Shown piece after piece: positions 1,297-58,041 of a stretch of 64,000 bases of DNA; within the stretch, counting starts at the first letter, position 1; each line of letters begins with the position of its first letter. The notes beneath the pieces are model-generated. The model did not search any database, was not told the DNA's origin, and saw only the letters and a program-made list of their open reading frames with translations. The stretch spans positions 62,001-126,000 of the forward strand of contig NZ_CP059851.1 of assembly GCF_014117445.1 (NCBI RefSeq). The letters run 5' to 3'. Source of the DNA: Sandaracinobacteroides saxicola. GTDB lineage: Bacteria; Pseudomonadota; Alphaproteobacteria; Sphingomonadales; Sphingomonadaceae. Both the position numbers and the translations under genes were made by a program.

Positions 1297-2229
1297 TCAG
1301 CCGAGCTTGGCAGTCAATTCCGGCACGATCGTGAACAGGTCGCCGACCAGGCCATAGTCGGCCACCTGGAAGATCGGGGCTTCCTCGTCCTTGTTGATGG
1401 CGACGATGACCTTCGAATCCTTCATGCCGGCGAGATGCTGGATGGCGCCGGAGATGCCGACCGCGACATAGAGTTCGGGGGCAACGATCTTGCCGGTCTG
1501 GCCGACCTGATAATCGTTCGGCATGTAGCCGGCGTCGACCGCGGCGCGGGACGCACCGACGGCGGCACCCAGCTTGTCGGCGAGCGGCTCGATCACGCTG
1601 TGGAAATTGTCGGCGCTGGCAAGCGCGCGGCCGCCGGAGACGATGATCTTGGCGGCGGTCAGGTCGGGGCGGGCGGACACGGTCTTTTCCGCGCCGACGA
1701 AGCTGCTGATGCCGGCGTCCGCGGCGCCGCCGATGGCCTCGACCGGCGCGCTGCCGCCGGTGACCGCCTTCGCGAAAGCCGTTGGCCGGATGGTGACGAT
1801 GACCTTGGCGTCGCCGCTGCTGACGGTGGCGATGGCCTGGCCGCCATAGATGGGGCGGGTGAAGCTGGTGGGGCTTTCGACCGAGAGGATGTCGCTGACC
1901 TGCGCGACATCGAGCAGGGCGGCGACGCGCGGCGTGACATTCTTGCCGAAGGTCGAGGAGGTGGCGACAAGCGCGCTATAGTTCGCCATCAGGCCGGCGA
2001 CCAGCGGTGCGACATTTTCGGCAAGGCCGTTGGCGAGCGTGACGTGATTCGCCAGCAGCACCTTGGCGACGCCGGCGACCTGGGCCGCGGCGGCCGCTGC
2101 GGCGTCGGCGCCGTCGCCGGCAACGAGGACGTGGACATCGCCGCCGATCTGCGTCGCGGCGGTGACGGCGGCGAGCGTCGAATCCTTCAGGCTGGCATTG
2201 TCATGGTCGGCGAGAACGAGGACGCTCAT
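1297..2229 (-). CDS. etfA: Electron transfer flavoprotein subunit alpha
   Basis: The 310-residue alpha subunit of ETF, the FAD-carrying heterodimer that takes electrons from acyl-CoA and other dehydrogenases and passes them to ETF:ubiquinone oxidoreductase. The C-terminal FAD domain is clear: a GRALAS segment, then [16 protein letters not shown] and [14 protein letters not shown], ending [13 protein letters not shown], all typical of the family. Length is normal. Its ATG overlaps the etfB stop as ATGA, so the two subunits are translationally coupled. Confidence 0.97.
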
Positions 2230-2975
2230 GCGAGGGCTCCCACTTTCTTCAGGTTTTCGATGAGTTCGTCGGTGGTCTTCACCTTGATGCCGGCGGAGCG
2301 CTTCGGCGGCTCGCTGACCTTGGTGATGCTGACGCGCGGGGTGAGGTCGACGCCGTAATCGGCGGCGGTCTTCTGCGCGATGGGCTTGGATTTCGCCTTC
2401 ATGATGTTGGGGAGCGAAGCGTAGCGCGGCTCGTTCAGGCGAAGGTCGGTGGTGACGATCGCGGGCAGTTTCAGGCTGACCGTCTCCAGCCCGCCATCGA
2501 CCTCGCGGGTGACGGCGACATGGTCGCCCTCGGGCGCGACCTTCGAGGCGAAGGTGCCCTGCGCCCAGCCGGTCAGCGCGGCGAGCATCTGGCCGGTCTG
2601 GTTGGCGTCGTCGTCAATCGCCTGCTTGCCCAGGATGACCAGCCCGGGGGCTTCCTCTTTCGCGATGGCCGCCAGCACCTTGGCGACGCCCAGCGATTCG
2701 GACGGGCCATCATGCGTGACCAGGATGCCGCGGTCGGCGCCCATGGCAAGCGCGGTGCGGATGGTTTCGGTGGCCTGCGCCGGCCCGATGCTGACCACCA
2801 CGATTTCGGTGGCAATGCCCTTTTCCTTCAGGCGCACGGCTTCCTCGACGGCGATTTCGTCGAACGGGTTCATGCTCATCTTGACGTTGGCGAGTTCGAC
2901 GCCGGACTGGTCGGACTTCACCCGGACCTTGACGTTGTAATCCACCACCCGCTTCACGGGCACCAGCAATTTCAT
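2226..2975 (-). CDS. etfB: Electron transfer flavoprotein subunit beta
   Basis: The 249-residue beta subunit of ETF, which binds AMP and docks onto EtfA. The start [14 protein letters not shown] is the standard family N-terminus and is preceded by AGGAG eight bases upstream; a longer in-frame extension to about 3194 has no such support and runs into the M20 gene. The family motif [19 protein letters not shown] is present. It is followed directly by etfA with a 4-base overlap. The gap of 70 bases to the upstream M20 peptidase leaves room for a promoter. Confidence 0.97.
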
Positions 2976-3045
2976 GCGTGCGGCTCCTGTCCCTTGCTCA
3001 GCGGCACGCCTTGCAACAGGCGTCCGTGAATCGCAAGGGTTGCGG

Positions 3046-4257
3046 CTATGCGGCGCGGGGGAAGCCCCGCGCGGCAAGGCGCATGAGCAGGAGGGCGGAG
3101 AGGCGCGCGCGTTCGGCGAGGCTGTCCACCAGCAGAAATTCGGCGTCGCTGTGGATGGCGCCGCCGCGCACGCCCAGCGTGTCCACCACGGCAAGGCCGG
3201 TGGCGGCGAGGTTGTTGCCGTCGCAGACGCCGCCGGCGGGCTGCCAGGCGATATTCAGGCCGAGGTCGGTGCCGGTATCGCGCACCAGGTGGAACAGGCG
3301 GAGCTGGTTCTCGTCCAGCGGTTTTGGCGGACGGGCGAAGCCGCCATGGCGATGGGCGCTGACATCGTGCGCGAGGGCGACGGCGGCGATCGCCGCGTCC
3401 ATGGCAGCGCTGGCCTCGGCCTGCGCTTGTGGCGTGGAGGGACGAAGGTTGACGCGGAGCACGGCGTTGTCCGGCACGACATTGTTCGGCGCGCCGCCGT
3501 CGATCTTCGCGACATTCACTTTCAGCTCGGGCGAGCGGAGCGCGGCAAGGCGGAGCGCCAGGTCGGCGGCGGCAACGATGGCGTTGCGGCCATCCTGCGG
3601 GTTGCGCCCGGCGTGTGCAGAGCGGCCGGCGAGGTGGACGGAGAAGTTGCCGCTGCCGGGGCGGGCGCCGGCGAGGGTGCCATCGGGCAGCGCCGAGGGT
3701 TCATAGGTCAGTGCCAGGTGGACGCGGGCCGCGGCGGCGGCGAGCAGCGGGGCGGAGCCGAGGGAGGAGACTTCCTCGTCTGCGTTGAGGATGATTTCAT
3801 AGCCGAGGCGTGAGGCGTCGGGGCTGGATTCGAAAGCCGCCAGCGCGGCGAGCATGACGGCAATCCCACCCTTCATGTCGGCGACGCCGGGGCCGTTCAG
3901 GGTGTTGCCGTCGAGCCAGCGCAAGGACTGGAAGGGGTGATCGACGGCAAACACCGTATCCATGTGACCGGTGAGCAGTACGCGGGTGGCGGCGTTCGGG
4001 CGGACGGACAGGTGGAGGTTGCGGCCGTGGGGCAGCGGGCGTTCCTGACCGTCGGCGGTCATCTGGGTGGCGGGAGCGGGGTCGACGAAGGCCATGGTGC
4101 CGAGCGCCGCGAAGGCGGCGGCGAGGGTGGCGGCGGTGGTTTCGAGGCCGGCGAGGTTGCGGCTGCCGCTGTTGATGGCGCACCAGGCCTCGACCTGGGC
4201 CAGCATGGTGGCGGGATCGATGGACGCCAGCGCGGCCGCTTCCGCCGGGCTGATCAT
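3046..4257 (-). CDS. M20 family metallopeptidase / deacylase
   Basis: A 403-residue M20 (carboxypeptidase G2 / acetylornithine deacetylase-like) zinc hydrolase. Zinc ligands are visible in TGHMDTVF (about residue 96) and [10 protein letters not shown], with the catalytic acid pair in NADEEVSS and the dimerisation domain around [16 protein letters not shown]. No signal peptide, so probably cytoplasmic. Its ATG overlaps the stop of the thiamine-diphosphate enzyme (ATGA), so the two are co-translated and may act in one pathway, perhaps releasing an amino acid or acyl product. The substrate cannot be read from the sequence. Confidence 0.88.
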
Positions 4258-5909
4258 GCGCCGTCCGCCAGCCGCCGGCCGGGTCCGATTTCCTGCGGGT
4301 CGGTCAGGATGTGGATCAGCGCGGCGCTGCCCGCGGCGCGGGCGCGGGCAAGCGCATCGGGGAAGGCCCCGGTGGTGGTGACGGTTTCGCCGTGCAGGCC
4401 GAAGCTGCGGGCGAAGGCGGCGAAATCGGGGTTGGTCAGGCGCGTGCCGCTCTGCCGGCCGCTGAAGTCGCGGGCCTGGTGCATGCGGATGGTGCCGTAC
4501 TGGCCATTGTCCAGCACGACAAAGATCGGCCGCGCGTCCTCATGCGCGCAGGTGGCGAGTTCGTTGCCCGACATCAGGAAATCGCCATCGCCGGCGACGA
4601 CCACCACGGTGCGGTCCGGATGCAGGATGGCGGCGGCGATGCCGGCGGGGACGCCATAGCCCATCGCGCCGGAGGTGGGGGCGAGCTGCGTGCCGGCTGC
4701 GCGGTGGTGGTGGAAGCGGTGCAGCCAGGCGGCGAAATTGCCGGCGCCGTTGGCGAAGATGGTATCGGCGGGGAGCGTTTCGGAGAGGTGGGCGATGATG
4801 GCGGCGGGGTTGGGGCCGGACTGCACGCTGGTGGGGGTGGTCCAGGCGAGATAATCGGCGCGGGCCCCCTCCGTCACTCGCTGCGCTCGTGCCACCTCCC
4901 CCGCTTCGCAGGGGAGGAGCTTGGCCAGTGCGCTCAGCGTGGCGCCGATGTCGGCGTGGAGGGCGAGGGCTGGTTGCCAGACGCGGCCCAAGGCCAGCGG
5001 GTCCGGGTGGATGTGGACCAGGGTGCGGGCGGCGCTTTCGGGGGTGAAGAGGGTGTAGGCCTGGCTGGGGTTTTCGCCGAGGCGGGCGCCGACGCACAAC
5101 AGCAGGTCGGCGGCTTTCACGCGGGTGACGAGCGCGGGGTTAGCGCCCAGGCCGAGTTCGCCGGCGTAGAGCGGGTGGCGGTTGTCGAAGCGGTCCTTGC
5201 GGCGCCAACTGGTGACGACGGGCATTTGCCAGGCTTCGGCGAAGCGGCAGGCATCGGCAACCTGTTGCGCGCTGACGCCGGGGCCGCCGAGCAGCAGCAG
5301 CGGGCGCTGAGCGGCGGCGAGGCGGGCGTGGATTTCGGCGAGCGCGGCTGCGTCTGGCGCGGGCGGGGCGATGCGGGCGGGGGCGACGGCGGGGTGGACG
5401 GCGGGTTCGGACAGCTGGTCCTCCGGCAACACCACCACCACCGGGCCGGGGCGGCCGCTGGCGGCGGCGGACAGCGCCGCCGCCATCAGTTCGGCGGTGC
5501 GGTCGGGGCGGTCGATGGTAATGACGCGCTTGGCGATGGTGCCGAAGACGGCGGTGTAATCCACTTCCTGAAAGGCTTCGCGGCCGAGCATGTCGGTGCC
5601 GACCTGGCCGACCAGCAGCAGCATCGGCGTGCTGTCCTGCTGCGCGGTATGAAGCCCGATGGCGGCGTGGGTGGCGCCGGGGCCGCGCGTCACCATGGCG
5701 ACGCCGGGGGTGCCCCGCAACTTGCCATAGGCTTCGGCCATGTTGGCGGCCGCAGCCTCGTGCCGGCAGGTGACCAGGCGCAGCCGGTCGCGGACATCGT
5801 GCAGCGCATCGAGGACGGCAAGGTAGGATTCGCCCGGCACGGCGAAGGCGTGGGTGACGTTCGCTGCGATCAGGGCATCGACGATGGTCTGGGCGACGGT
5901 GCGTGACAT
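4254..5909 (-). CDS. Thiamine-diphosphate-dependent enzyme (acetolactate synthase-like)
   Basis: A 551-residue three-domain ThDP enzyme of the acetolactate synthase / benzoylformate decarboxylase group. Seen: the cofactor-activating glutamate E51 in TCRHEAAAANMAEAYG, the central domain, and the C-terminal ThDP motif starting GDGDF at 440 and ending with the conserved Asn near 468. The start MSRTVAQTI is chosen because homologues begin here and AAGG lies upstream; an extension to about 6002 would overlap the cytochrome b561 gene. Residues about 331-349 (LLPCEAGEVARAQRVTEGA) are encoded by a palindromic repeat also found between genes in this window. No small regulatory subunit is adjacent, so it is probably a catabolic or side-pathway enzyme, not IlvB. 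Confidence 0.85.
   Translation of the reverse strand: MSRTVAQTIVDALIAANVTHAFAVPGESYLAVLDALHDVRDRLRLVTCRHEAAAANMAEAYGKLRGTPGVAMVTRGPGATHAAIGLHTAQQDSTPMLLLVGQVGTDMLGREAFQEVDYTAVFGTIAKRVITIDRPDRTAELMAAALSAAASGRPGPVVVVLPEDQLSEPAVHPAVAPARIAPPAPDAAALAEIHARLAAAQRPLLLLGGPGVSAQQVADACRFAEAWQMPVVTSWRRKDRFDNRHPLYAGELGLGANPALVTRVKAADLLLCVGARLGENPSQAYTLFTPESAARTLVHIHPDPLALGRVWQPALALHADIGATLSALAKLLPCEAGEVARAQRVTEGARADYLAWTTPTSVQSGPNPAAIIAHLSETLPADTIFANGAGNFAAWLHRFHHHRAAGTQLAPTSGAMGYGVPAGIAAAILHPDRTVVVVAGDGDFLMSGNELATCAHEDARPIFVVLDNGQYGTIRMHQARDFSGRQSGTRLTNPDFAAFARSFGLHGETVTTTGAFPDALARARAAGSAALIHILTDPQEIGPGRRLADGA
4865..4919. repeat. G-rich palindromic repeat inside a coding region
   Basis: On the plus strand the element contains CACTCGCTGCGCTCGTG and a hairpin CCTCCCC / GGGGAGG (4895-4901 with 4911-4917). 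Read on the minus strand it holds GGGGGAGGTGGC, CGCAGCG and GAGGGGG, matching the intergenic copy at 48270-48304. Here it is in frame inside the ThDP enzyme, in the likely linker between the central and C-terminal domains. Confidence 0.7.
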
Positions 5910-48254: not shown

Positions 48255-48269
48255 CCCAGCGTTCATCCC

Positions 48270-48304
48270 ACCAAGGGGGAGGTGGCGCGCAGCGCCTGAG
48301 GGGC
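48270..48304. repeat. G-rich palindromic repeat, intergenic copy
   Basis: AGGGGGAGGTGGC, a GCGC-AGCGC core and GAGGGGC match the element found inside the thiamine-diphosphate enzyme gene at 4865-4919. It lies just after polA. The rest of 48305-48532 holds one hairpin (48349-48369), a smaller one near 48390, and no gene. Confidence 0.6.
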
Positions 48305-48348
48305 ATCCTACTCACAGCACAAGCATGGCACCATCCACCACACCCGTC

Positions 48349-48377
48349 GCCCCGGGCTCGACCCGGGGCTTGGATTT
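48349..48377 (+). terminator. Terminator-like hairpin downstream of polA
   Basis: GCCCCGGG and CCCGGGGC form a perfect 8-bp stem with loop CTCGA, followed by TTGGATTTTT. It lies about 95 bases after the polA stop and may end the polA transcript. Elements of this sequence type are dispersed in sphingomonad genomes. Confidence 0.6.
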
Positions 48378-56155: not shown

Positions 56156-56210
56156 GCGTCCCCACCCCCGCTCAGCTTCGCTGAGTCGCCCCTCCCCTGA
56201 AGGGGAGGGG
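56156..56210. repeat. G-rich palindromic repeat between msrB and typA
   Basis: Two stems: CTCAGC / GCTGAG (56171-56176, 56180-56185) and CCCCTCCCC / GGGGAGGGG (56189-56197, 56202-56210) with a TGAA loop. It resembles the element at 63121-63179 and may act as a two-way terminator for these convergent genes. Confidence 0.65.
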
Positions 56211-56211
56211 G

Positions 56212-58041
<1,830 letters not shown>

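Follow-up and report, generated by a model that had tools for sequence, protein, structure and literature searches.

Rickettsia palindromic elements (RPEs) are palindromes inserted in frame in conserved proteins. According to the part of Di Nocera et al. (2013; PMC3733652) on which we draw, RPEs of R. conorii terminate in CGTC, and the CGTC REPs are short palindromes, found mainly in alphaproteobacteria, mostly intergenic with some in ORFs, that have no dedicated transposase. The same part describes them as single hairpins: the stem has 8-9 bp and nearly always starts with AT, the loop has 4-5 positions, a CCA tail is usual, and head-to-head dimers are the prevailing arrangement. Among the REPs that it lists inside genes are some in tRNA synthetases and in TruB, from 'S. 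alaskensis' and 'E. lithoralis'. Two further systems invite comparison: the REPIN/GTAG REPs with RAYT, which are dispersed hairpin repeats with copies sometimes in inverted pairs, and the intrastrand triplex motifs, whose loops are short (Holder et al., 2015; PMC4666352, consulted in part), of which TM_ECO combines one C-rich and two G-rich arms in a single strand and is present in many dispersed copies.

The locus studied here lies in a window of 64,000 nucleotides (chromosome positions 62001-126000 of a single-contig 3.36 Mb genome), where an initial annotation had pointed to a palindromic repeat in frame inside the gene of a thiamine-diphosphate (ThDP) enzyme. We find a real repeat and a real in-frame copy; since in-frame REPs are already known from the RPEs and from 'S. 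alaskensis', which we take to be a Sphingopyxis, and 'E. lithoralis', presumably an Erythrobacter, the kind of event is not new. This weakens the suggestion that finding such a case in a sphingomonad is noteworthy, REPs within genes of both having been listed before (PMC3733652, in the part used). What the present case adds is a sphingomonad-type genome, with inserts in PriA, Tgt and other conserved proteins, to the genomes in which palindromic DNA became protein.

The repeat family and described elements

The family is dispersed, with at least 76 copies at E<=0.004 in the 3.36 Mb genome, found with a model (R1) built from an alignment of 25 copies. Its members measure approximately 46-61 nt and consist of two hairpins and three conserved C/G-rich arms, being longer where a second palindrome is nested. 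R1 gave 112 rows at E<=0.1, and most of the 36 that were dropped matched, over 22 nt, the reverse of hairpin 2; the 76 copies are a lower bound, because 150 of 4754 first-look candidates were scored. An initial blastn of the genome had returned 55 rows, some of which were reverse matches to the same copies. Hairpin 1 could be parsed in 71 of the 76 copies and is represented by 46 distinct sequences, nearly all of which fold (mean -6.4 kcal/mol versus -2.5 for shuffled letters), while RNAalifold on the aligned copies recovered hairpin 2 only, without compensatory changes. Subfamilies are visible by hairpin 1 and arm length: one has several copies with four C/G, not five, in all three arms. Near-identical versions of hairpin 1 occur at 66864, 682865, 1540589, 1904720 and 2841874, in differing surroundings. 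At chromosome positions 519020 (stretch L185) and 1286551 (stretch L218) the loop of hairpin 2 itself contains a further palindrome (CCACCCCATGAACAAGTTCATGGGGACCCC or a variant), which also has matches in five other stretches examined.

Like the CGTC REPs, the family consists of short palindromes that are mostly intergenic, with some copies in ORFs. As regards the tag, most copies have CGTC at the base of hairpin 1, in the form of a preceding CCGTC, but GTC pairs with GAC in many, and one subfamily has CCCGC. The present family differs in having two hairpins and three C/G-rich arms instead of a single hairpin. Its stem lengths vary, its loops are mostly of 3 nt, a GTC-AT start is seen in 9 of the 46 distinct sequences, and inverted pairs within 400 bp (four of them) account for 8 of the 76 copies. 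Hairpins of the CGTC-REP type seem to coexist in the genome, with 12 regular-expression matches in 374 kb, a raw count that carries no chance expectation. With the RPEs, compared here by description and not by sequence, the family shares palindromes tolerated in frame inside conserved genes (Tgt, PriA, cytochrome c, the ThDP enzyme and others); it differs in host lineage, and the ThDP case is more a replacement than an insertion. Unlike the REPIN/GTAG REPs with RAYT, the aligned copies have no GTAG tag, and the genome gave no match to the Y1 transposase domain PF01797 at E<=0.001, a search that was positive in 5 of 14 control genomes. In TM_ECO, as described in the part of the source used, the pattern is CCCTCNCCC-N3-6-GGGNGAGGG-N3-GGGNGAGGG; judged by eye, the present copies depart from it in arms and second loop, the arms being of 8 and not 9, and the second loop being itself a hairpin instead of 3 nt.

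Among 39 genomes of the same taxonomic family, the own genome included, seven match at E<=1e-9, with 36 matches in the own genome and 1-18 in each of the other six. Plasmids gave no element match, nor did viral contigs in a search with an exact 37-nt word, and in Rfam five loci yielded one sub-threshold match, located outside the element. The family did not turn up in the literature searched, for the most part at the level of titles; the main text of RepRanger 2025 (PMC12306157), in the portion consulted, contains no word beginning with 'sphingo'. The family looks little described, and is apparently undescribed.

The copy within the ThDP enzyme gene

The host enzyme carries all three TPP domains, N, M and C (Pfam), and its subfamily was assigned with NCBIfam (Table 1). 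It has a single match in its own genome at E<=1e-100, and by similarity its nearest named matches come from a Sandarakinorhabdus MAG (68%) and from Sphingosinicella (65%), in a search that may omit records of the own or near-identical genomes. In the plus-strand order the focal copy shows arm 1, hairpin 1, arm 2, a short loop and arm 3, and arm 2 pairs with arm 3. Read on the minus strand, the element corresponds to residues K330-A349 of the enzyme, and residues 331-349 are encoded by the repeat exactly as the initial annotation wrote; its placement in the linker that precedes the C-terminal ThDP domain is likewise supported.

Table 1. Coordinates of the repeat, its parts, its host gene and weaker family matches in the 64,000-nucleotide window
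Feature	Position in window	Strand	Evidence
Host ThDP enzyme gene, 551 aa, PRK08199 subfamily	4254..5909	-	Pfam, NCBIfam
Full palindromic element	4864..4922	+	Family model R1, 66.3 bits, E 4.3e-14 in window
Arm 1, CCCCCTCC, mirror image of arm 2	4865..4872	+	Little or no variation among 25 aligned copies
Hairpin 1, variable stem, internal mismatches in the focal copy's subfamily	4875..4891	+	Sequence, hairpin-1 comparison
Arm 2, CCTCCCCC, 5' arm of hairpin 2	4895..4902	+	Sequence, 25-copy alignment, RNAalifold
Arm 3, GGGGAGG, 3' arm of hairpin 2	4911..4917	+	Sequence, RNAalifold, model R1
Weak relative cited by the initial annotation, without arm 3	48259..48304	-	13.2 bits, E 0.13
Further weak family match	56164..56213	+	14.9 bits, E 0.053

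That a repeat copy lies in frame within this gene is borne out by the full-length match to R1 (Table 1), a model that counts the focal copy among its 25 training rows, and, independently of the model, by a blastn match to chromosome 682861-682921 with 97% identity over 61 nt (E 4.3e-23). The repeat had originally been recognised by comparison with an intergenic element at 48270-48304; the conclusion that the focal stretch is a repeat copy holds, but that comparator is weak and lacks the last arm (Table 1). A CGTC-REP-like hairpin, seen by eye at 48342-48375 of the window, adjoins this weak relative. The weakness of the comparator and the GC-richness of the genome (68% in the stretches examined) could be taken to mean that a GC-rich coding stretch resembles the repeat by chance or convergence. 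We consider the probability of this negligible: the full-length matches already refute it, a third copy matches the focal element by blastn at E 9.4e-15, and the pattern CCCCCTCCGTC-N5-25-GCCACCTCCCC occurs 10 times in the genome versus 0 for the reversed-pattern control. As for the stem that the 55 bases were said to form, stems are conserved and vary across copies, but the focal 60-nt fold overall is no stabler than shuffles (z 0.38 and -0.46 for the plus and minus strands). The evidence for the stems is thus conservation plus variation among copies, and not the fold energy of the focal copy.

An insertion of about 18 residues had been predicted for this enzyme, and here the comparison with 109 homologues told otherwise. 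Measured against residues 312-372 of the enzyme, the aligned stretch ranges in all of them (109/109) from 10 residues shorter to 3 longer, with a median of 3 shorter, and in the eight most similar homologues it is 0 to 6 residues shorter. As a control, six other 61-residue stretches of the enzyme were compared: length was unchanged in at least 100 of the 109 homologues for five of them, and in 59 for the sixth. These comparisons indicate a variable linker in which the repeat mainly replaced other residues. A tryptophan common at the linker in many homologues is missing here. We infer the event in this gene from homologues of at most 69% identity. An AlphaFold model built with 29 homologues, an alignment input that can bias the prediction, has a mean pLDDT of 88.7 and places a single helix at protein residues 336-356 (335-355 in the model, from which the first Met is absent; block pLDDT 87-93). 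The repeat encodes residues 336-349 of this predicted helix, and would hence form most of the interdomain linker helix before the C-terminal domain.

Very probably, a REP-like two-hairpin copy landed in the linker codons of the ThDP gene and mostly replaced them, with clean insertions in Tgt, PriA and the cytochrome. A copy of the dispersed palindromic family would have entered the linker codons, where it can be read through because it is GC-rich and mostly stop-free (a mean of 80% of the six frames per copy are free of stops). Insertion plus loss of native linker codons would leave a protein of near normal length, and the repeat-encoded residues might then have been taken over as the predicted linker helix. 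Copies would have moved, perhaps by a replication-coupled route, and selection could have retained the small number that lay in a linker or loop, kept the frame and had no stop; the host proteins are presumably made and working. Alternatively, the linker codons could have been overwritten from another copy, by gene conversion or by template switching; this would account for the almost constant length of the region (median difference 3). The 97% identical copy at 682865 fits such an exchange, as does the copy in BchB, which also lies in a linker. Nonetheless, at the protein level the linkers of homologues have no evident resemblance to the repeat-encoded residues that could have served as a starting point, and the copies in Tgt, PriA and the cytochrome add rather than replace; we regard this route as possible but rather unlikely. 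The ThDP gene suggests that palindromic DNA can substitute for a native linker, and not just add to it.

Copies in other genes

The initial annotation had asked for other copies in the genome, inside coding regions included, and both were found: nine of the 76 copies lie within eight proteins and two more at one C-terminus. The list of in-gene copies was compiled in part manually, from a home-made codon model and inspected translations, followed by homologue and domain checks. Compared with their homologues, the copies in Tgt, PriA and a diheme cytochrome c read as clean in-frame insertions. Tgt has two tandem copies and approximately 41 extra residues relative to Tgt structures; in 6ygl, which we take to be the Zymomonas enzyme, chain residues 191 and 193 align to residues 178 and 221 of the query. 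In PriA, TGSGKT and PEIALT lie 58 residues apart, 37 more than the 21 seen in 28 of 29 homologues; the remaining homologue has 26. Approximately 18-20 of the extra residues come from the element, and the rest, judged by eye, from an adjoining stretch with its own hairpin; this additional stretch of about 50 nt in the priA insert (stretch L208, 2474-2586) has no other copy in the DNA examined. The SO2930-type diheme cytochrome c has 38 residues where 26 of 29 homologues have 17-22 (+16 to +21), three being unmatched by the anchors.

The copies in MtaB and BchB lie in variable linkers: MtaB has 78 residues versus 41-92 in 23 of 29 homologues (six unmatched), and the PDB homologue of BchB has an unrelated Ala/Pro-rich stretch at that place. 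PriA and MtaB each have one match in their own genome at the cut-offs used. In a LysM-M23 protein, domains flank the copy on both sides according to a domain search made without a homologue alignment, and the tail of RuvC is made of the two further copies. A spermidine-synthase-like membrane protein, which gave no Pfam match, probably hosts a copy as well; it is the least certain case, its left side resting on coding potential. Relative to its host gene, an in-gene copy can run in either direction. In the relatives, 0 of 24 copies (24 loci from 48 rows) were in frame within a gene by the home-made codon model. The bchB gene, at 2211-3878 of stretch L206, encodes a dark-operative protochlorophyllide reductase and suggests a phototrophic organism.

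Several candidates were dropped from the list. At 1912751 opposite strands were called on the two sides, though one coding check passed, and at 528160 a stop stands just before the element despite the same frame. The copies at 499989, 1041719, 1904720 and 2374973 are probably upstream of the start (by eye); at 1990252 the start of GspG is ambiguous, as are the gene starts at 2223577/2223659.

Spread and orientation of the family

Target-site duplications were sought in 62 of the 76 copies, leaving aside 7 copies in composite repeats and 7 below 33 bits; 19 of the 62 share a word of at least 5 letters across their ends, compared with 17.8 expected from shuffled pairings. Three individual candidates were rejected, there being no family-wide excess: the 8-bp direct repeat GGAAAAGG bounding the PriA insert, 105 nt apart (35 codons), GGAC occurring three times in Tgt, 48 and 63 nt apart, and GGCC 60 nt apart at the focal copy, all distances taken by eye. 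The composite repeats are eight units of approximately 440 bp (stretch L221, 2126-2566, and seven loci 87-91% identical to it), with one copy of the element each.

The direction of the copies is striking in the own genome: 70 of the 76 point with the sign of local GC skew (Fisher 4e-15; for instance in stretches L182, L225 and L208), and the element's own skew runs opposite to the local skew that it follows. Agreement with the coding majority is found in 36 of 71 copies. Where the two flanks have their coding majority on opposite strands, 28 of 28 copies follow the skew rule, as do 30 of 31 copies whose overall coding majority is at odds with the skew. In six relatives, where skews are small and flanks shorter, 11 of 24 copies are concordant (Fisher p 1.0). 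The rule could be explained by entry into one strand at the fork, by counter-selection of one orientation, or by a target sequence commoner on the G-rich strand. Such a tight orientation gives a testable lead on how REPs with no known transposase spread.

The tracking of GC skew, together with hairpin stems that vary while pairing persists, would also suit an element kept in coding DNA for a role in RNA or DNA, such as transcript processing or chromosome structure, with the peptide as a by-product. Both directions relative to the gene occur, though, so that there is no single RNA form, and we judge this explanation improbable. It is doubtful, too, whether the wider picture applies in full, namely that an undescribed family, built of three C/G-rich mirror arms and two hairpins, spreads in a manner that depends on the replication strand and not on a Y1 transposase, and by in-frame entry supplies linker and loop sequence to conserved enzymes, here most of an interdomain helix. 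Of the six exceptions to the skew rule, four are in inverted pairs and two are clustered with one such pair, and five lie within 0.06 of zero skew. An orientation count by replichore alone, with the boundary placed by eye, gave 31 of 39 and 29 of 37 and was superseded by local GC skew.
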